DNA of 64,000 bases from Hesseltinella vesiculosa (lineage: Eukaryota; Mucoromycota; Mucoromycetes; Mucorales; Cunninghamellaceae), in the NCBI GenBank assembly GCA_002104935.1, contig MCGT01000039.1, forward strand, positions 179,373 to 243,372. Direction: 5' to 3'. A program made the translations under genes and the position numbers. Below are positions 14,408 through 35,844 of this stretch, in pieces (position 1 is the first letter of the stretch; every line of letters begins with the position of its first letter). The notes under the pieces are model-generated. The model did no database searches. It was not told where the DNA came from and saw only the letters and a list, made by a program, of their open reading frames with translations.

Positions 14408-14419
14408 GAAAGCATGTGC
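14408..14419 (+). repeat. Left 12-bp direct repeat (target-site duplication) of Fanzor copy 1
   Basis: GAAAGCATGTGC, identical to 18437-18448. The two copies bracket exactly the segment that is shared with the second Fanzor element. Confidence 0.75.
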
Positions 14420-14973
14420 TTTGAGAAAACCAGCACAACCAATCAAATAGCCAGCTGCATATGCGCTACTAAGCGCACTAACATGATCCGCTTGCAGAAA
14501 AGAATTTGTCGCATTTCTGCAAAGCATATTATTTTTACCACCTTGGATTTATAGACCAAACATGGTAAGGCATAGGGAGAGGCATGCGTGAAATAGACAG
14601 AATGGTATGGTTAGTCGCAATTTCTTCAATCTGGAGCATTTTTGTTTAACTGAGGATTACTCTGGGGCCAGAATTTTTTTTTTTTCGTGGTTTGGTTTGC
14701 CAGGCAGTGTTAAGTTTTTATTTAAGAAGCACAGTAAAATGAGCAATAGAGATAGGCAAAGAGTGTTACCTTTATCATTGATGGTACGCTACTTCATTTT
14801 ATATTTCAAAAAAGAAAGGTACGTAGTAAAAAAAGGGCTAAGGATGTGATTGGCGGTCATTCTCGCTGGCATTGGCAAAGGTTTGATCATCCGCAACACG
14901 CGATTCTTTTTTTTGTTTGTTTATCTAGGCTCTTCTATCTTTTTTATTTTTGCTCATTTTCTATCTATCCCTG

Positions 14974-17900
14974 ATGCAATCGCTTCTTCAAGCCGTCTAC
15001 GAAACTCTGTGCCACATCCCTGAAGAGGATTTCCGCCGGGCGTTGCCTGATCTGTTGGATCAAGCTTGGATGACCACCGAACAAATCTACACTGTTTGGT
15101 CACAAGCAAAAGTCTATCGCAAACGCAAGTCATCCATCACTTCAATCATGTCTTTTTCTTTACCCATCTTCGTAGGACGGGAAACTGGGCCCACGCCACA
15201 ACGACGTGCCCAACAACAGGAACAAAACGATCGCGCCGAGGGGAGACGGCAGCGCCAAGAAGATGAGCGAAATACTGATGCTGTGGGACCGTGTGCCACA
15301 TGCGGCCAAATGGGACACTGTTCGTCTGCCAGCCGCCTCTGTCCTTTCCATCGCATGAACAAGAAGGATTACATCAACGAAATGATGCCAGGTGGTGAGC
15401 GCTACACGATAAAAAAAAGCTTTGAAGATGCCGTCCGGCAACCGTTCAAGCTCGCTTTGAAGCGCAACATAGAGTCGACCAGCGCCTGCAACAAGAACAT
15501 CCTTTTCTGCCTCCAATTATTTCTCAACCATTTCGCTCTCACCCACCCGTCCGACTTTAAAAGCATCATGATCAGCCAGAACGGTATCCTGTCCATCTCG
15601 CAACTCGTCTATCCCCGCAACCCGCGTCGACCAGGGATGACCAACGCTCATGTCCTACGAAGCCTTCCTCCCACCTTCCTGCCTCACTGGAACCAGTTTG
15701 TCCGTGACCACCCGAACATCACCTACAACCCCAACGACCACCAAGGCATGGGTCCGCTCGGCAATGCAGCCCTTCTCATTCCTGCTGATCACCGCAGCCT
15801 TCACTTCCACCACCCGCATAAATTCTATGCAAATACTTTTGGGCCATGCTTGTCAACGCTTGCCACAGCTTACTCCAATTGTTTGGTGATCGACTTTGAG
15901 AAAAAGGTCAAGAAGTTTATTCGATTCTCCTTTGCCATCACGGATCTCAGCGTAGGTTTATAAAAAAAAAAAGAACCAAAAAAGGGATATGTTCTGACTT
16001 TTTTTTGTCTCTTTCAGATCCCTCACATTGACCGGCAGGTGGATGATATCTACACGAGCTTTGCAGAGAGACCTTCCCATCCTCAATCAGGGGTCACACC
16101 TGGATCGGCCACAAGCAATGTCCCTGGTATGTCTACCGAAGAAGCGGCCATTGCCAGTGTGAAGGCGAAAACACTGGCCTTGAAACCCCACTACGTTGGC
16201 AAATTGACGTCGACAACCCTGTCCCGAAACCCCAGCAGTGCCTTGCTTGTCTACATCAACATCAACAAGCACTACGAGCAATACAAGTGCCAGCCCAATG
16301 CCAACCCTAAAAAATGCCCGAAGCTTACCATCCTTCCTGAGCCTCACTTTGGACGCCGATTCATCCCCATCTTACCCGACACGATCAAATATCTAGCCGA
16401 ATGCGATGTCATTGAAACAAACAACGACAACTCTGGTGTACCCGACGCCGCATTCATCCGTGCCTTGCCCATGTTTTTCAAGGTATTCCACATGGAGAAG
16501 TTTAACTTTGGCGGGCCAGGTTTCGGGAGGCAAGTTTTGCAGACACCAAAAAAAAAGAGCAGCTTCTGATTTTTTTCTTCTTCTTCTCGACCAGTGTCCG
16601 GGACATGCTTGAAGGCGTACATCTCAACCGCCCATTGTTTGCTTGCCACATTTAGTGCGATGGCGTTTCGTGCTGCTTTGAATTTGTTCGTTTGCCAACC
16701 ACGCATCGCCCAACGATGAAGCTGTCCAGTCTGGACCACTGGGATACCGAACTGGTAGAACGCTTCGACATGGTCGCCGTCGATCCAGGCCGCCGTGCCA
16801 TCGTCACCGGAAGCTATGTCACACCTTATCCACTTTCTATGCTCCCTGAAACCTGGGATGACGAAGACTCTGCAGGTGAAGGTGAACCCGATAACGATAA
16901 TGACGAAGAACAAATGGCTATCGACACCCCATGTCCTATTCGTACTGCTCAGCCTGCACATCAACATCAGGACTTTGACAACGCCACTGGCAGCACTGAT
17001 ATGGAACAAGGAAACCTCTCTATGCCTATGATTGACGATGCCGATCCTACCACCCCGATCCCCCAGTCTCACCATCTGCCTTACCGAGTCATCAAAGTTT
17101 CTGCAAAGGAATACCGCTCGCAATGTGGAACGCAGCGACGAATCCAACAATTGGAACGACGCAAGGTTTCCACAACATACTCCTTCCGAGGTCAGCAAAT
17201 ACCGTTCCATCAGATGGAAGCCGCCATCCCTTCCCACCAAACCACCAGCCCCACTCAATATGCCACACGAATCCAGTACCTGCTTGATCGTCTCCCGCTC
17301 TTTTTCGACTTTTATGGCCTCCAGCACTCCATCGACCGCTTCAATGCTTACAGAGGGCGTCAGCGGGGCGTGGCATACGTTGCCAGTGTTCTTGCTGGTC
17401 TGTCCAAGAAGTATGTCAAGTCCCAGCGCAATGTGCGCGGCCACCGTAAGCGTACCCACCGCAATCGGCGCAAGCGTCAGAAGAAAGCTCGGAAGAAAAA
17501 GGCCTTCAAGATCAGCAAGGCCAAGAAGGCGATGGTGGAACACCTTGCAGCGCTGGATGTTTCTATCATGAAGACTGAAAATCTGCTAAAATGCTCTGCT
17601 GGCTCGATGCTACCTGGGACAACGGATTTATGGGAAGCAACATTACATACCATGCGCACCCAACGCGACCTGGACCGTGACCACCGTATTGATCTGATCA
17701 ATGAAATGGAAGAAAAGAGGCAAGTCGCCGTGGTATTCAGGAGGTCCAGGTGGGCTTATTTTTCCATTGTAGACCCGCACCGCAAATGAAGCCAAGCACA
17801 CGTCTTCGTCACGGTGTGACAAAGTTTCCCAGCGAAAGAGTTCCATTAATACTCTTTGGTGATGGCCTCAAGGGCCGGAAGGTCGCCGCCCCGCTCAAAA

Positions 17901-18283
17901 AGCAGCTTCCTGGCTCGTCTTCCCTGGTGTTTGACCAATTGGAAAACCGACAACGTCAGGACAAGCTTGCTGTTATCTCACTGAATGAGTTCAAAACAAG
18001 CAAGGTGGGTGAAAAAAAAAAGGCATGGCAACCGCAACGAAGTGGCTCATTCTCTTTCTTTATGCAGCTCTGCTCTGTCTGCCATGGCCCAACCAAAAAC
18101 CCAGTCATGAATGGGGGCAAGATTTATGGACTTATGCGCTGCAGCTCCTGTGCGGCCATCTTTGACCGGGATGTCATGGCAGCTTGCAACATGATCTCCA
18201 TTGGTCAACACTTTTTCCAACACAAGCAACGCCCCCTGGCCTTTTGCCCGCGCCGACGCCCCCAAACCTCTCCTATCGTTTAG
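14974..18283 (+). pseudogene. Fanzor (eukaryotic TnpB-like nuclease), copy 1, with a nonsense codon
   Basis: Exons can be laid exactly on copy 2: 14974-15124, 15176-15951, 16018-16529, 16595-17719, 17773-18004 and 18068-18283. They total 1004 codons in one frame, except that codon 500 is TAG (16653-16655) where copy 2 has TGG. This would end the protein before the RuvC domain. The rest is well preserved: the zinc knuckle (CATCGQMGHC), the RuvC-I VDPGRRAIV, FGDG, the RuvC-II NEFKTSK, the CSVCH/CSSC zinc ribbon and RuvC-III DRDVMAACN. Two donors that are GT in copy 2 are GC here (15125 and 16530), both within a GCAAGT consensus, so splicing may be weakened but not lost. Re-initiation downstream of the stop (for example at the Met near 16716) would keep all RuvC motifs, but this is speculative. 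Confidence 0.88.
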
Positions 18284-18436
18284 TTTTCATTTTTATTCAC
18301 CAAAGCAACCTCGCAAAAAGGGTTACCGTCTGCTCTGGCAAGAACGCGTTTAATGCTTTTATCCGGTAATTGGTGTTTTTAGCCAACACTTAGCACAAGT
18401 TCTGATTGTTGACGGAGTTTTCTTTTTTTCGTAGTG
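18284..18436 (+). ncRNA. Candidate guide-RNA (omega/fRNA) scaffold region of copy 1
   Basis: About 150 bp between the stop codon and the element end are nearly identical in both copies, although non-coding. In TnpB and characterised Fanzors the guide RNA scaffold overlaps the 3' end of the gene and the element end, with the guide reading into flanking DNA. The position fits that rule. Transcription and structure are not visible from sequence alone. Confidence 0.35.
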
Positions 18437-18448
18437 GAAAGCATGTGC
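18437..18448 (+). repeat. Right 12-bp direct repeat (target-site duplication) of Fanzor copy 1
   Basis: GAAAGCATGTGC, identical to 14408-14419, immediately after the last base shared with copy 2. Confidence 0.75.
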
Positions 18449-29052: not shown

Positions 29053-30301
29053 CTATTGGCCGAAGGATTCACCCTTGGCAATGTTCTTCTTCAAGTCAAC
29101 AAGGCACTTTTGGACCAAGTCCTTTTCGTAGTCAGAGATTTCACCCAAACCGTGGATCTTTTCAACACCGTTGGGGCCGAGTTCGACGTTGGAGGAGAAG
29201 TATTCGATACCTTGGTCAGCATAGAGGTCAGACTTGACAAAGGAGGGTTCGATCACGCCCTTCTTGCCACCGACGGTAGCTTCCAAGACAGAGTTGGCGA
29301 AACGGGCACCGGCAAAGGCCATGGACAAAGTAGCGGAACCAGCACCATCCTTGGCCTGGACGACTTCGTCACCACCGAATTGGATACGGTGGGTCAAAGC
29401 ATCCAATTCTTCCTTGGTGAATTCGAAACCGGATTGGGACAAGAGAGGGACGATGGTGACACCAGAGTGACCACCGACAACGGTGATCTTGACATCCTTG
29501 GGGTCCTTGTTCTTGATTTCAGACACGAAGCGGGAAGCACGAACAACATCCAAGGTGGTGACACCATACAAACGCTTGGGGTCAAAGACACCAGCCTTCT
29601 TCAAGACTTCAGCAAAGATGGGGACAGTGGAGTTGACAGGGTTGGAGATGATCAAGATGTGGGCCTTGGGGCAGTGCCTAGGATAAAAGAGGAAAAATTA
29701 TAAGAATGTCGTTTTCTGCCTATCACATGCCATCCCGCCCAATTGTTTATTTTTTTTTCCTGTTCCGCACCATCCATCTTCATCCACTTACTTGGCAGCA
29801 GCTTGAGCGAGGGTTTGGACAATGGAGGCGTTGGTGTTGAACAAGTCATCACGGGTCATACCAGGCTTACGGGGGACACCGGCGGGGATGACAACAACGT
29901 GGGCGTCTTCAAGAGCAGCCTTCAAACCATCGTTGGCGGCAGTGTGACCAGTAACCTGTAACAACCCAAGTCAGTCTCGTGTTTTTTTTTCTTTTTTGGT
30001 TTCCTTCTCTTACCTTGGAGTTGGTGTTGATGTGGCTATGTCATAGGAAAATGAAAAGGTTGAGCGGCACTGTCCATGTCATCTCTTGTGATGTTTACCT
30101 CAAATCAGCGGCAACACCAGGGGTGTTGACGATATCATACAAAGCCAAGTGGGAAACGTGGGGGTTTTCCTTCAAGAGGAGAGACAGAGGTTGACCAATA
30201 CCACCGGCAGCACCGAGGACAGCAACCTTGGACAGGTTAGCAGCAGAGGTAGAGAAGGAACGCTTAGCAGCAAAGGAGGCAGCACGAGTAGCAGCAAACA
30301 T
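29053..30301 (-). CDS. MDH1: Malate dehydrogenase, mitochondrial
   Basis: NAD-dependent oxidation of malate to oxaloacetate in the TCA cycle. The N terminus ([20 protein letters not shown]) is Arg/Ser/Ala-rich without acidic residues, a convincing mitochondrial presequence. Then come [19 protein letters not shown] (NAD-binding loop), LALYDI, a 22-nt microexon (30014-30035) encoding [26 protein letters not shown], the NPVNSTVPI motif, [26 protein letters not shown] (catalytic His), [14 protein letters not shown] and [13 protein letters not shown]. Length and motifs are complete. The start is ATG 30301 and the stop 29053-29055. It lacks a C-terminal peroxisomal SKL. Codon use is clearly C-ending biased (AAC, TTC, AAG), as expected for a highly expressed gene. 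A Fanzor element begins about 170 bp upstream. Confidence 0.97.
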
Positions 30302-31002
30302 AATGTTTCGTTTTTGAAAAGAAAGAAGAAAAGAAAAGAAAAATAAAGCCAAAAGCTGGAGCCTTCTTACCGTCTGGCCTTCAATTTTTTTAACAATTTT
30401 GCCGACACCCATGCCACCTTGACAGTCACCCCCAAAAAATCACTCCCGCCCAATGATGATTATCAATGGAAAATTTGAGAAGAAAAAAACAGCGCAACCA
30501 ATCAAATAGCCAGCTGCATATGCGCTACTAAGCGCACTAACATGATCCGCTTGCAGAAAAGAATTTGTCGCATCTTTCTGCAAAGCATGTTATTTTTACC
30601 ACCTTGGATTTATAGACCAAGCATGGTAAGGCATAGGGAGAGGCATGCGTGAAATAGACAGAATGATATGGATAGTCGCAACTTCTCCAATCTGGAGCAT
30701 TTTTGTTTAACTGAGGATGACTCGGGCCCGAATTTTTTTTTTTCGTGGTTTGGTTTGCCAGGCAGTGCTAAGTTTTTATTTAAGAAACACAGCAAAATGA
30801 GCAATAGAGATAGACAAAGAGTGCTACCTTTATCATTGATGGTACGCTACTTCATTTTATATTTCAAAAAGAAAGGTACGTAGTAAAAAAAGGGCTAAGG
30901 ATGTGATTGGCGGTCATGCAACACGCGATTCTTTTTGTTTGTTTGTTTATCTAGGCTCTTCTATCTTTTTCTTTATTTCTGCTCATTTTCTATCTTTCCC
31001 TG

Positions 31003-34000
31003 ATGCAATCGCTTCTTCAATCCGTCTACGTAACTCTGTGCCACATCCCTGAAGAAGATTTCCGCCGGGCGTTGCCTGATCAGTTGGGCCAAGCTTGGAT
31101 GACCACGGAACAATTCTACACTGTTTGGTCACAAGCAAAAGTCTATCGCAAACGTAAGTCATCCATCACTTCCATCATGTCTTTTTCTTTACCCATCTTC
31201 GTAGGACGGGAAACTGGGCCCACGCCACAACGACGTGCCCAACAACAGGAACAAAACGATCGCGCCGAGGGGAGACGGCAGCGCCAAGAAGATGAGCGAA
31301 ATCCTGATGCTGTGGGACCGTGTGCCACATGCGGCCAAATGGGACACTGTTCGTCTGCCAGCCGCCTCTGTCCTTTCCATCGCACGAACAAGAAGGATTA
31401 TATCAACGAGATGATGCCAGGTGGTGAGCGCTACACCATAAAAAAAAGTTTTGAAGATGCCGTCCGGCAGCCTTTCAAGCTCGCTTTGAAGCGCAACATA
31501 GAATCGACCAGCGCCTGCAACAAGAACATCCTTTTCCGCCTCCAATTGTTTATCAACCATTTCGCTCTCACTCACCCGTCTGACTTTAAAAGCATCATGA
31601 TCAGCCAGAACGGTCTCCTGTCCATCTCGCAGCTCATCTATCCCCGCAACCCGCGGCGACCGGGGATCACCAACGCTCACATCCTGCGAAGCCTTCCTCC
31701 CACCTTTCTGCCTCACTGGAACCAGTTTGTCCGCGACCACCCAAACATCGTGTACAACCCCAACGACCACCACGGCATGGATCCGCTCGACAATGCAGCC
31801 CTACTCATTCCTGCTGATGACCGCAGCCTTCACTTCCATCACCCGCATAAATTCTATGGAGGTACTTTTGGGCCATGTTTGTCAACGCTTGCCACCACTT
31901 ACTCCAATTGCTTGGTGATCGACTTTGAGAAAAAGGTCAAGAAGTTTATTCGATTCTCCTTTGCCATCACGGATGTCCAAGTACCGGTAAGTTTTTTAAA
32001 AGGGCGGTACCAAAAAAGGGAATGTGTTCTGACTTTTTTTTGTCTCTTTCAGATCCCTCATATTGACCAGCAGGTGGATGACATCTACACAAACTTCGCA
32101 GAAAGACCCTCCCACCCTCAATCAGGGGTCACATCTGGATCGGCCACAAACAGTGACCCTGGCGTGTCTGCCGAAGAAGCGGTGATTGCCGATGTGAAGG
32201 CGAAAACACTGGCCTTGAAACCCCACTACGTTGGTAAATTGACATCAACAACTCTGTCCCGAAACCCCAGCAGTGCCTTGCTTGTCTACATCAACATCAA
32301 CAAGCACTACGAGCAATACAAGTGCCAGCCCAATGCCAACCCTAAAAAATGCCCGAAGCTTACCATCCTTCCTGAGCCTCACTTTGGACGCCGATTCATC
32401 CCCATCTTACCCGACACGATCAAATATCTAGCCGAATGCGATGCCATTGAAACAAACAACGACAACTCTGGTGTACCCGACGCCGCATTTATCCGTGCCT
32501 TGCCCATGTTTTTCAAGGTGTTCCACATGGAGAAGTTCGACTTTGGCAGGCCTGGGTACGGGAGGTAAGTTTCGCAGATACCAAAAAAAAAAAAAAAAAA
32601 TAACTTCCAACTTTTTTCTTCTTCTTCTCACCTAGTGTCCAGGACATGCTTGAGGGTATACTATACAACCGTCCACTGTTTGCTTGCCACATTTGGTGTG
32701 ATGGCGTTTCGTGCTGCTTTGAATTTATTCGTTTGCCAAGCACGCATCGCCCAACGATGAAGCTGCCCAGCCTGGACCACTGGGATACCGAACTGGTAGA
32801 ACGCTTCGACATGGTCGCCGTCGATCCAGGCCGCCGTGCCATCGTCACCGGAAGCTATGGCACACCTTATCCACTTTCTATGCTCCCTGAAACCCGGGAT
32901 GACGAAGACTCTGCAGGTGAAGGTGAACCCGATAACGATAATGACGAAGAACAAATGGCTATCGACACCCCATGTCCTATTCGTACTGCTCAGCCTGCAC
33001 ATCAACATCAGGTCTTTGACAACGCCACTGGCAGCAATGATATGGAACAAGGAAATCTCTCTATGCCTATGATTGACGATGCCGATCCTACCACCCCGAT
33101 CCCCCAGTCTCACCATCTGCCTTACCGAGTCATCAAGGTTTCTGCAAAGGAATACCGCTCGCAATGTGGAACGCAGCGACGAATCCAACAATTGGAACGG
33201 CGCAAGGTTTCCACAACATACTCCTTCCGAGGTCAGCAAATACCGTTCCATCAGATGGAAGCCGCCATCCCTTCCCACCAAACCACCAGCCCCACTGAAT
33301 ATGCCACACGAATCCAGTACCTGCTTGATCGTCTCCCGCTCTTTTTTGACTTTTATGGCCTCCAGCATTCCATCGACCGCTTCAATGCTCACAGAGGGCG
33401 TCAGCGGGGCGTGGCATACGTTGCCAGTGTTCTTGCTGGCCTGTCCAAGAAGTATGTCAAGTCCCAGCGCAATGTGCGCGGCCACCGTAAGCGTACCCAC
33501 CGCAATCGGCGCAAGCGTCAGAAGAAAGCTCGGAAGAAAAAGGCCTTCAAGATCAACAAGGCCAAGAAGGCGATGGTGGAACACCTTGCCGCGCTGGATG
33601 TTTCTATCGTGAAGACCGAAAATCTGTTAAAATGCTCTGCTGGCTCGATACTACCTGGGACGATGGATCTATGGGAAGCAACATTACATACCATGCGCAC
33701 CCAACGCGACCTCGACCGTGACCACCGCATTGATCTGATCAATGAAATGGAAGAAAAGAGGCAAGTTGTCGTAGTATTCAGGAGGTCCAGGTGGGCTTAT
33801 TTTTCCATTGTAGACCCGCACCGCAAATGAAGCCAAACACACGCATTCGTCACGGTGTGACAAAGTTTCCCAGCGAAAGAGTTCCATTAATACTCTTTGG
33901 TGATGGCCTCAAGGGCCGGAAGGTCGCCGCCCCGCTCAAAAAGCAACTTCCTGGCTCGTCTTCCCTGGTGTTTGACCAATTGGAAAACCGACAACGTCAG

Positions 34001-34324
34001 GGCAAGCTTGCTGTTATCTCACTGAATGAGTTCAAAACAAGCAAGGTGGGTGAAAAAAAAAAGGCATGGCAACCGCAACGAAGTGGCTCATTCTCTTTCT
34101 TTATGCAGCTCTGCTCTGTCTGCCATGGCCCAACCAAAAACCCAGTCATGAATGGGGGCAAGATTTATGGACTTATGCGCTGCAGCTCCTGTGCGGCCAT
34201 CTTTGACCGGGATGTCATGGCAGCTTGCAACATGATCTCCATTGGTCAACACTTTTTCCAACACAAGCAACGCCCCCTGGCCTTTTGCCCACGCCGACGC
34301 CCTCCAACCTCTCCTACCGCTTAG
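31003..34324 (+). CDS. Fanzor: predicted RNA-guided nuclease, eukaryotic TnpB homolog
   Basis: Six exons (31003-31153, 31205-31986, 32053-32564, 32636-33760, 33814-34045, 34109-34324) join in one frame to 1005 codons plus stop. The N-terminal half has a zinc knuckle (CATCGQMGHC...CPFH, about residues 105-125) and a conserved helical region. Around residue 545 is RuvC-I (MVAVDPGRRAIV, D545), then an acidic insert, a very basic segment (RNVRGHRKRTHRNRRKRQ and onward, likely nucleic-acid binding or nuclear targeting), LILFGDGLKG, RuvC-II (SLNEFKTSK, E929), a zinc ribbon (C936/C939, C959/C962) and RuvC-III (FDRDVMAACNM, D969). This split RuvC with inserted ribbon is the TnpB/Fanzor hallmark. The intron at 33761-33813 appears to use a GC donor (GAG/GCAAGT). 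Characterised Fanzors cut DNA guided by an RNA from the element's 3' end; activity here is inferred. Confidence 0.9.
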
Positions 34325-34477
34325 TTTTCATATTTATTCACCAAAGCAACCCTGCAATAGGGGTTACCGTCTGCTCTGGCAAGAACGTGTTTAATGCTTT
34401 TATCCGGTAACTGGTGCTTTTAGCCAACACTTAACACACGTTCTGATTGGTAACGGAGTTTTCTTTTTTCCATAGTG
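34325..34477 (+). ncRNA. Candidate guide-RNA (omega/fRNA) scaffold region of copy 2
   Basis: The conserved 3' non-coding stretch after the Fanzor stop parallels 18284-18436. If the TnpB rule holds, the scaffold ends near 34477 and the flanking DNA starting GATAAACGATTTCCC would be the guide. No promoter or terminator can be assigned. Confidence 0.35.
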
Positions 34478-34565
34478 GATAAACGATTTCCCGAGCAGCA
34501 GGGCTCGATGATATCATTTGACATGTGTCAGTCTTTTTTTTTTTTTTATTTATAAAAGGCCTCCG

Positions 34566-35844
34566 TTAAACGCTTACAAGAAGATCTGGAGCTATCGAGG
34601 GTCCCACCGAACGCTGTGATTGTAGCGTCCGCACTGCAGCCTTTTGTCCACTTGCCAGGACCTTGACCCAAGTATTGACGTCTTGAATCCATGGATCTTG
34701 CCTTAGATTAGCCAGCACCACTCCCACAAAACTAAACCTTCACTTAGCACTCTTCTTCTTCTTTTTTTTTTTATACCTATCACCAGCTCCCGTGACACTT
34801 TGAATGGTGGAAGGATCCACTGTTTCGGCAGGAAGATGGGCAATAGCATTGGTTACATGACTGACATACAAACAGCCCTGGTCTCCCAATTTTGTGATGA
34901 CATGCGGGATGGTATGAGAGAGCAGCCAGGCAGGCTCCAGCATCTGCTGAGCCAATAAGGGTAGGCGACTTGGGTCGATGTCTGGTAGTTTGGTTCGGGC
35001 AATGGAGGGTTTAGTGCAATGGCTGGCCATGGCTTCCAGTTCGTATTGGTTGGGAGAGGTGTACCAGATGGCCCGTGTGTCGACGAGACCATCAAAGATC
35101 TTGACAGATTTGGGTATGGAGGTGGGTTCAAAAAACACTAGAGGAACATGAGTGAACGAAAAAAGGGACGGGGTAGGACACTTTACCAGGAATGCCCATG
35201 GATCGGCTTGTCTTTGTGAGATCAACCATGGCTTTAGGCGCGATATTCCCATCAAAGCAGACAAGCGAAGGTTCAAGATCTTGGAAGACCGATTTCACCT
35301 GCACGTATAAAAAAAAAAAAAAAAAAAAAAGTCAGACAAGGTTCGACGGTCGCCTATTTACCTGTGAGAGATCCATCTGGTCAAATATTGCCATATCTGC
35401 TACCGCAGCCAACAGCTGACCATCGTTTGTATGAAATGCGTTGTAAACCTGTATTAAAAAGAGAATATGGTGTGAGCCGGAAAGTCTATGGCAAAAAAGA
35501 AAAACCGCTTACAGCCGAGGCTTGGCCAGGCAACGTGCAGAGCAAGTCGGTGGTCATACCAACGTCCTGAAGACCTTGCTTCAAAATTTGGCCAGGAGGA
35601 TCATCCCCAATGACTGTGAGCAATTGGCAGGGTGCACCTGCACGGAAGGCCGATTCGCAAATGTTACGACCTACACCACCCAGAGACTGGCGCACATGAC
35701 CGACGGTAGAGGTGTGCAAGAAGTTCTTGACACTTTGAGTAGTGGCGGTAATATCTAAAGCAATGCCACCTACAACAATGAGCTGAGAAGAAAGGTGAGC
35801 AAACAGGTTGTTCGGAAAGCGAAGAGTACCGGTCGAAAAGACAT
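34566..35844 (-). CDS. PfkB-family sugar/nucleoside kinase (pseudouridine-kinase-like)
   Basis: Ribokinase-fold phosphotransferase. A 15-nt first coding exon (MSFRP, start 35844) is spliced to LIVVGGIALDITATTQS. Then come GHVRQSLGGVGRNICESAFR (the N-terminal PfkB GG...N motif) and LLTVIGDDPPG, LLAAVADMAIF, VCFDGNIAP, FEPTSIPKS, VITKLGDQGC. The catalytic anion-hole signature VTGAGDSFVG is split by an intron right after TGAGD. The C-terminal helix SGQKAAVRTLQSQRSVGPSI ends at the stop 34566-34568. The motif set and the short acidic/DITA start resemble eukaryotic pseudouridine kinases, in many fungi fused to a pseudouridine glycosidase; here the kinase stands alone. The substrate is inferred, not proven. 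An A20 tract lies in one intron. Confidence 0.82.

Follow-up and report, generated by a model that had tools for sequence, protein, structure and literature searches.

Fanzors are relatives of CRISPR nucleases found in eukaryotes. Table 1 of PMC3627910 lists Fanzor1 families of the genera Mucor, Rhizopus and Phycomyces, and PpFz1 of Parasitella parasitica has been solved (PMC11423790). Here we describe a locus of Hesseltinella vesiculosa (Mucorales) within a 64,000-nucleotide stretch of assembly GCA_002104935.1 (contig MCGT01000039.1, positions 179,373 to 243,372 of the forward strand), which is called the window below and in whose numbering all coordinates are given. We hold with good confidence that this locus carries an intact member of a multicopy, non-autonomous family of DNA transposons in which a Fanzor gene is the only gene recognised; its product of 1005 amino acids is, as judged from this size, most likely a Fanzor1. 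A preliminary description of the window had proposed an intact Fanzor at this site, and the open frame, catalytic triad, zinc ribbon and canonical splice sites of the window copy make this identity very likely. Fanzors of this kind are already known from the Mucorales; the family described here is well preserved.

The closest described elements share some features with this one and differ in others. Like the Mucorales Fanzor1 elements MCi, ROr and PBl, which are described as multicopy DNA elements that encode a TnpB-like protein and, in several cases, carry no transposase (PMC3627910), the present element is multicopy and has no recognised transposase gene, and it shares ragged 5' ends with MCi-2. 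By description, however, ROr-4, PBl-3 and MCi-4 have MuDR-like ends and 9-bp duplications, whereas the ends here are CACTATGGAAAA and TTTTCCATAGTG and the target is Y^GA; likewise, MCi-2 and MCi-5 are described without recognised inverted ends, which the present element has (PMC3627910). PpFz1 resembles the protein here in carrying an insertion in the RuvC domain (about 100 residues in PpFz1; PMC11423790), but the insertion here is acidic, of low complexity and begins about 15 residues past D545. Neither the single sequence nor a C-terminal profile had a named PpFz1 chain among its PDB matches.

SpuFz1 of Spizellomyces punctatus (PMC10432273) is also a Fanzor with a zinc ribbon, and our C-terminal profile matches it with an E value of 0.0022. 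The S. punctatus element SPu-1 is, like the one here, multicopy, with inverted ends and one open reading frame, but SPu-1-1p has 633 amino acids encoded by one exon, and its duplications are TA (PMC3627910). The corresponding features here are 1005 amino acids, six exons and a GA target. SPu-1-1p is taken by us to belong to the SpuFz1 family. The Fanzor1 elements CRe-1, CRe-2 and CRe-3 of Chlamydomonas show, as does the present element, intact 3' ends, truncated 5' ends, variable duplications and retained introns; in contrast to the terminal inverted repeats found here, they have Helitron ends, and their truncation is far heavier (PMC3627910). Bao and Jurka asked whether the Fanzor protein causes the 5' truncation with its variable duplications and the difference between the CRe elements and other Helitrons (PMC3627910).

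The Fanzor gene and its catalytic residues

When the genome to which the window belongs (27 Mb in 85 contigs) was searched at the DNA level, 23 near-full-length copies including that of the window were found, the other 22 at 90-96% identity, as well as further fragments. The gene is not solitary; it is one member of a multicopy mobile element, and the flanks differ among the 23 copies. The joined frame is open in 12 copies, 11 of which, including the window copy, also have canonical splice sites, and it is broken in the other 11. On the forward strand of the window, six exons between 31003 and 34324 (31003-31153, 31205-31986, 32053-32564, 32636-33760, 33814-34045 and 34109-34324) join into a single open frame (1005 codons plus the stop codon), and the six-exon, 1005-residue frame that had been proposed was rebuilt exactly. 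Three candidates were tried for the end of exon 4, two of which preserve the frame: a 53-nucleotide GC-AG intron 4 (33761-33813) gives exactly 1005 amino acids and has the donor GCAAGT in all 23 copies, and a 23-nucleotide GT-AG intron keeps the frame, yet is implausibly short.

Introns 2-5 differ in length among the copies, often by non-multiples of three, while the frame stays open in 12 of 23, which argues that these four would be removed by splicing in vivo. Intron 1 is the weakest of the five; it is possible but unproved, with a length of 51 nucleotides in 22 of 23 copies and an open read-through in 11 of the 12 open-frame copies, so that a protein longer by 17 residues is possible. In the window copy, no stop is met on reading through introns 1, 2 or 5.

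The catalytic residues stand where the preliminary description had named them. D545 (exon 4) lies in VAVDPG, with D545, P546 and G547 forming DPG; E929 (exon 5) lies in LNEFKTS; and C936/C939 and C959/C962 form a CxxC/CxxC ribbon between E929 and D969 (exon 6), which bears out the proposed TnpB/Fanzor architecture. The published Fanzor signature combines DPG with a glutamate six residues ahead of the zinc ribbon (PMC10711439). DPG is found at RuvC-I in all 12 open-frame copies and the repositioned-glutamate pattern ExxxxxxCxxC (here E929 and C936) in 11 of them, and both recur in the four other Fanzor-like loci of the genome that were checked. As judged from its position, E929 is the repositioned glutamate (Ealt) beside the zinc ribbon. 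The canonical TnpB glutamate, from which it is distinct, would lie some 50 residues further upstream, about where this protein has a GDG (886-888, exon 5). RuvC-I was assigned as it was because DPG recurs in those four loci and is kept among the copies.

A hidden Markov model search of the spliced protein, the check that had been suggested, matched PF07282 (Cas12f1-like_TNB) over residues 911-976 with 36.3 bits (E value 6.3e-9), above the cut-off of 26.3 bits. A C-terminal profile built from the window protein and the four other Fanzor-like frames matched TnpB-, Cas12- and Fanzor-type chains in the PDB, among them LaTranC (4.3e-8), the viral L79 (1.3e-6), SpuFz1 and GtFz1 (0.0076). The NCBIfam TnpB-type models gave weak matches, all under their cut-offs. 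The identity of the C-terminal domain is secure, and the putative RNA-guided nuclease activity is likely.

The coding sequence has been kept under constraint. D545, D969 and the four ribbon cysteines are unchanged in all 12 open-frame copies, and E929 in 11. The pooled ratio of nonsynonymous to synonymous diversity (pN/pS), from the 12 open-frame copies of the 23, is 0.29 (0.24, 0.32, 0.23 and 0.33 by segment), with the pairs non-independent and the copies recombining. The copy designated L027, the joined frame of which is open, has D in place of E929 and Y in place of H109 and has lost the donor of intron 2; it is probably a decaying copy.

Exon 4 also encodes an acidic low-complexity insertion (residues 560-655, approximately) and a very basic stretch (753-802), the first perhaps a disordered loop, the second perhaps a nuclear-localisation signal. 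Exon 2 carries an N-terminal CCHC-like motif readable as C90-x2-C93 ... C106-P-x-H109, which is kept in 11 of the 12 open-frame copies. This motif had been described as a knuckle in what may be a lineage-specific module; the motif stands, but its exclusivity to this element is disfavoured by one other Fanzor family of the genome (L058), whose N-terminal part reads, by eye, CPTC ... CPSH with a longer spacer.

Element ends and mode of insertion

Comparison of the 23 copies places the whole element of about 4.0 kb at 30466-34477 on the forward strand, from ATGGAAAATTTGAG to TTTTCCATAGTG. The earlier coordinates, 30474-34477, cover nearly all of it; the right end was retained, and the left end was moved outwards by eight bases. 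The left terminal inverted repeat of the window copy, ATGGAAAA, lies at 30466-30473; it is preceded by ACT in 11 of 23 copies (CACT in 9 and GACT in 2), and the left end is shorter in the other 12. In contrast, the right terminal inverted repeat (34466-34477, TTTTCCATAGTG) is present in all copies and exact in 19, and the adjoining GA (34478-34479), which we read as the target-site dinucleotide, is found in 22 (GG in L026). The constant right end and the ragged left end suggest that insertion is precise on the would-be guide side and ragged on the other. YGA occurs at -9 to -7 before ATGG in 11 of 23 copies (background 0.032 per position; binomial 4e-11), a position picked once the data had been inspected; the YGA seen at different distances in additional copies is likewise post hoc. 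In L026 the left end looks doubled, with a truncated element start ahead of a more complete one, the arrangement expected if a copy had landed in the end of an existing one.

Target duplications of 8-12 bp are found in four copies (L015, 8; L017, 12; L019, 11; L021, 10), the lengths being the number of letters that agree with the right flank; in L019 and L021 the final two or three of these may be part of the element. All four begin with GA after a pyrimidine, and all four copies have shortened left ends. L017, which is also in the window (14420-18436, forward strand), is 94% identical to the window element and has a truncated left end and a broken frame with its first stop after 499 codons; its perfect 12-bp duplication, GAAAGCATGTGC, lies at 14408-14419 and 18437-18448. 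Apart from these four, and from three copies with a 4-bp GANN repeat taken up below, the copies agree with the right flank in two or three letters beginning with GA or show no recognisable shared sequence. When the joined flanks of the 23 copies were searched for empty sites, with 40 of 84 candidates scored, all 41 matches listed belonged to the sites of the copies themselves, one being a short repeat next to L013; some flanks, for example both of L029, had no listed match, and an empty site may lie elsewhere.

These data bear on whether the element is moved by a cut-and-paste transposase acting in trans, as in the model set out below, or by one-ended copying anchored at the 3' end, as has been proposed for CRe-1, CRe-2 and CRe-3. 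We give the latter a real but minority share of the probability. The near-constant, GA-joined right end and the ragged left end speak for it, as do the four long duplications, which are confined to left-truncated copies and which none of 506 mismatched flank pairings equals in sharing at least 8 letters; 5' truncation and variable duplications are linked in the same way in PMC3627910 (section 8). However, the left end reaches ACT, the inverted repeat of the right end, in 11 of 23 copies, and left-truncated copies do not carry long duplications significantly more often than the fuller ones (4 of 12 versus 0 of 11; Fisher P = 0.09). L015 is a less clean case, as its left flank holds the duplicated motif a second time. 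Three of the 11 fuller-left copies have a 4-bp GANN repeat (GATT, GAAG or GAAT) on both sides, which also argues against one-ended copying, although matches of at least 4 letters, found in 12 of 23 copies against 38% of mismatched pairings, are not clearly commoner than in the latter.

With cut-and-paste transposition, a transposase supplied in trans would recognise the inverted ends. No recognised transposase gene is present in the element, and its other frames of 179-321 amino acids, antisense or out of frame, gave no Pfam match among the three scanned. CACTA (EnSpm) transposons have CACTA...TAGTG ends and a 2-3-bp direct duplication. Such ends are found in some copies of the element, with no consistent 2-3-bp flanking duplication, and we do not assign it to this class; Transposase_21 has seven matches in the genome, and the single locus examined shares only CACTA with the element ends. 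As a separate observation, six of these seven matches (on C42, C39, C46, C65, C5 and C34) lie less than 10 kb from a contig end and are perhaps subtelomeric. Helitrons are without terminal inverted repeats and have a Rep/helicase partner. Inverted ends are present here and the genome holds a sole Helitron match (Helitron_like_N), which disfavours both membership of this class and one-ended copying. For fungal Fanzor elements of the MuDR class, a 9-bp duplication has been described (PMC3627910); the flank letters shared here extend over 2-12 bp but never 9, and this class was likewise rejected. MULE has 21 matches in the genome; four loci were scanned for the element ends, and the only near match (L053) falls within sequence common to MULE relatives and is not terminal.

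It is also conceivable, although we regard it as rather unlikely, that the Fanzor itself participates in insertion, the guide-side end being joined at Y^GA and the other end by break repair. Y^GA would then be both the insertion motif and the target-adjacent motif of the nuclease; as the right-end junction reads GGA, the element would be spared its own cutting, and attachment of the other end by break repair would leave ragged 5' ends and variable duplications. If this were true, the Chlamydomonas-like pattern, found here with quite different ends, would be a property of the Fanzor and not of the transposase.

Guide RNA and nuclease function

Other Fanzors have their guide RNA at the 3' end (PMC10432273, PMC10711439). 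By analogy, the candidate omega RNA scaffold here is the noncoding tail that follows the stop codon and runs for 153 bases to the right end (34325-34477, forward strand), with the flank beyond 34479 as the presumptive guide. The between-copy diversity of the tail is 0.040-0.042, compared with 0.08-0.14 in introns 2-5 (0.138 in intron 5), 0.077 in exon 6 and a pS of 0.17 in the C-terminal coding part. Transposase binding at the inverted end would account for part of this conservation.

We propose that pre-mRNA splicing, with five introns of which the first is unproved, would yield the 1005-residue nuclease with its D545-E929-D969 RuvC site and zinc ribbon, and that processing of the 3' tail would give a guide RNA extending at its 3' end into the neighbouring DNA. 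The nuclease of each copy would thereby be aimed at its own flank, that is, at the site as it stands empty following excision or on a homologous chromosome, and repair of the break made there would copy the element back. The copies are strongly mosaic: identity between L020 and the window copy is 96-99%, drops to 83% and returns to 99%, and the incompatibility of neighbouring sites is 0.152 against 0.421 when shuffled (0 of 500 shuffles as low). This shows recombination or gene conversion between copies, which fits repair of nuclease-made breaks without demanding it.

A number of results weigh against this interpretation. The mosaicism is also compatible with ordinary ectopic gene conversion. 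The 5' noncoding part has diversities of 0.043 and 0.028, as low as the tail, and exons 1-2 and intron 1 have 0.030-0.037 (0.030 in intron 1); therefore, low diversity alone is no mark of a guide RNA. The single-sequence fold of the tail is no better than its shuffles (z = 0.17), covariation in a 19-pair structure named by hand does not exceed that in shuffles, and an Rfam search of 30000-35000 gave one match at chance level (E value 0.43). The consensus obtained with RNAalifold from 32 of 33 tails, L048 being omitted as too diverged, was weak (-2.48 kcal/mol; covariation term 0.16; both sides changed in 4 of 16 pairs); the fragments L042, L049, L050 and L052, whose right ends are unusable, are not among the 33. 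For the protein, the single-sequence PDB search gave weak matches only (best 0.0011), and none of 5799 candidates from a large protein collection reached an E value of 0.001 or below. The spacing of 381 residues from DPG to the glutamate and of 19 between the two CxxC pairs falls outside a published search pattern, which has 120-160 and 12-18, respectively (PMC10711439). However, because this pattern was written for finding TnpBs with Fanzor-like motifs, we do not take it as defining Fanzor; the same paper describes insertions in Fanzor1. Finally, among the few loci examined and the matches listed, no transposase locus with matching ends was found.

The lack of support for a guide-RNA structure from folding or covariation would be explained if the gene were a Fanzor-derived passenger that has lost RNA-guided nuclease function and is retained because it serves some other purpose, such as that of a DNA-binding partner or a repressor of transposition. 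We consider this improbable, as the triad and the ribbon are retained as described above, the one exception, L027, looks decayed, and pN/pS is low in all segments (0.23-0.33). That the locus is a single host-domesticated gene is hardly credible: the window copy is intact, but 23 near-full-length copies with common ends lie in differing flanks, and 11 of their frames are broken.

Genomic surroundings and significance

The element is inserted between a lactate/malate dehydrogenase-type gene on the reverse strand to its left (Ldh_1_C, 3.8e-43), with a proteasome subunit further left, and a PfkB-type kinase frame on the reverse strand to its right. Elsewhere in the genome, the TNB family has 46 six-frame matches; at least four other Fanzor-like C-terminal sequences are present (L001, L002, L003 and L007), one of which recurs in at least five near-identical loci (L003-L006 and L008).

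In summary, this locus represents an additional, well-preserved Fanzor family in which 11 copies retain both frame and splice sites and for which 23 insertion sites are mapped. Taken together, the intact copies and the mapped sites allow prediction of a target motif, 5'-YGA or perhaps NYGA next to the target, and of the guide of every copy. A similar, though here statistically weak, pattern in a second element whose ends differ from those of the CRe elements makes the question raised for the latter by Bao and Jurka (PMC3627910) testable. The precise-right, ragged-left insertion at Y^GA is the point most worth a second look, as it bears on how such elements spread.

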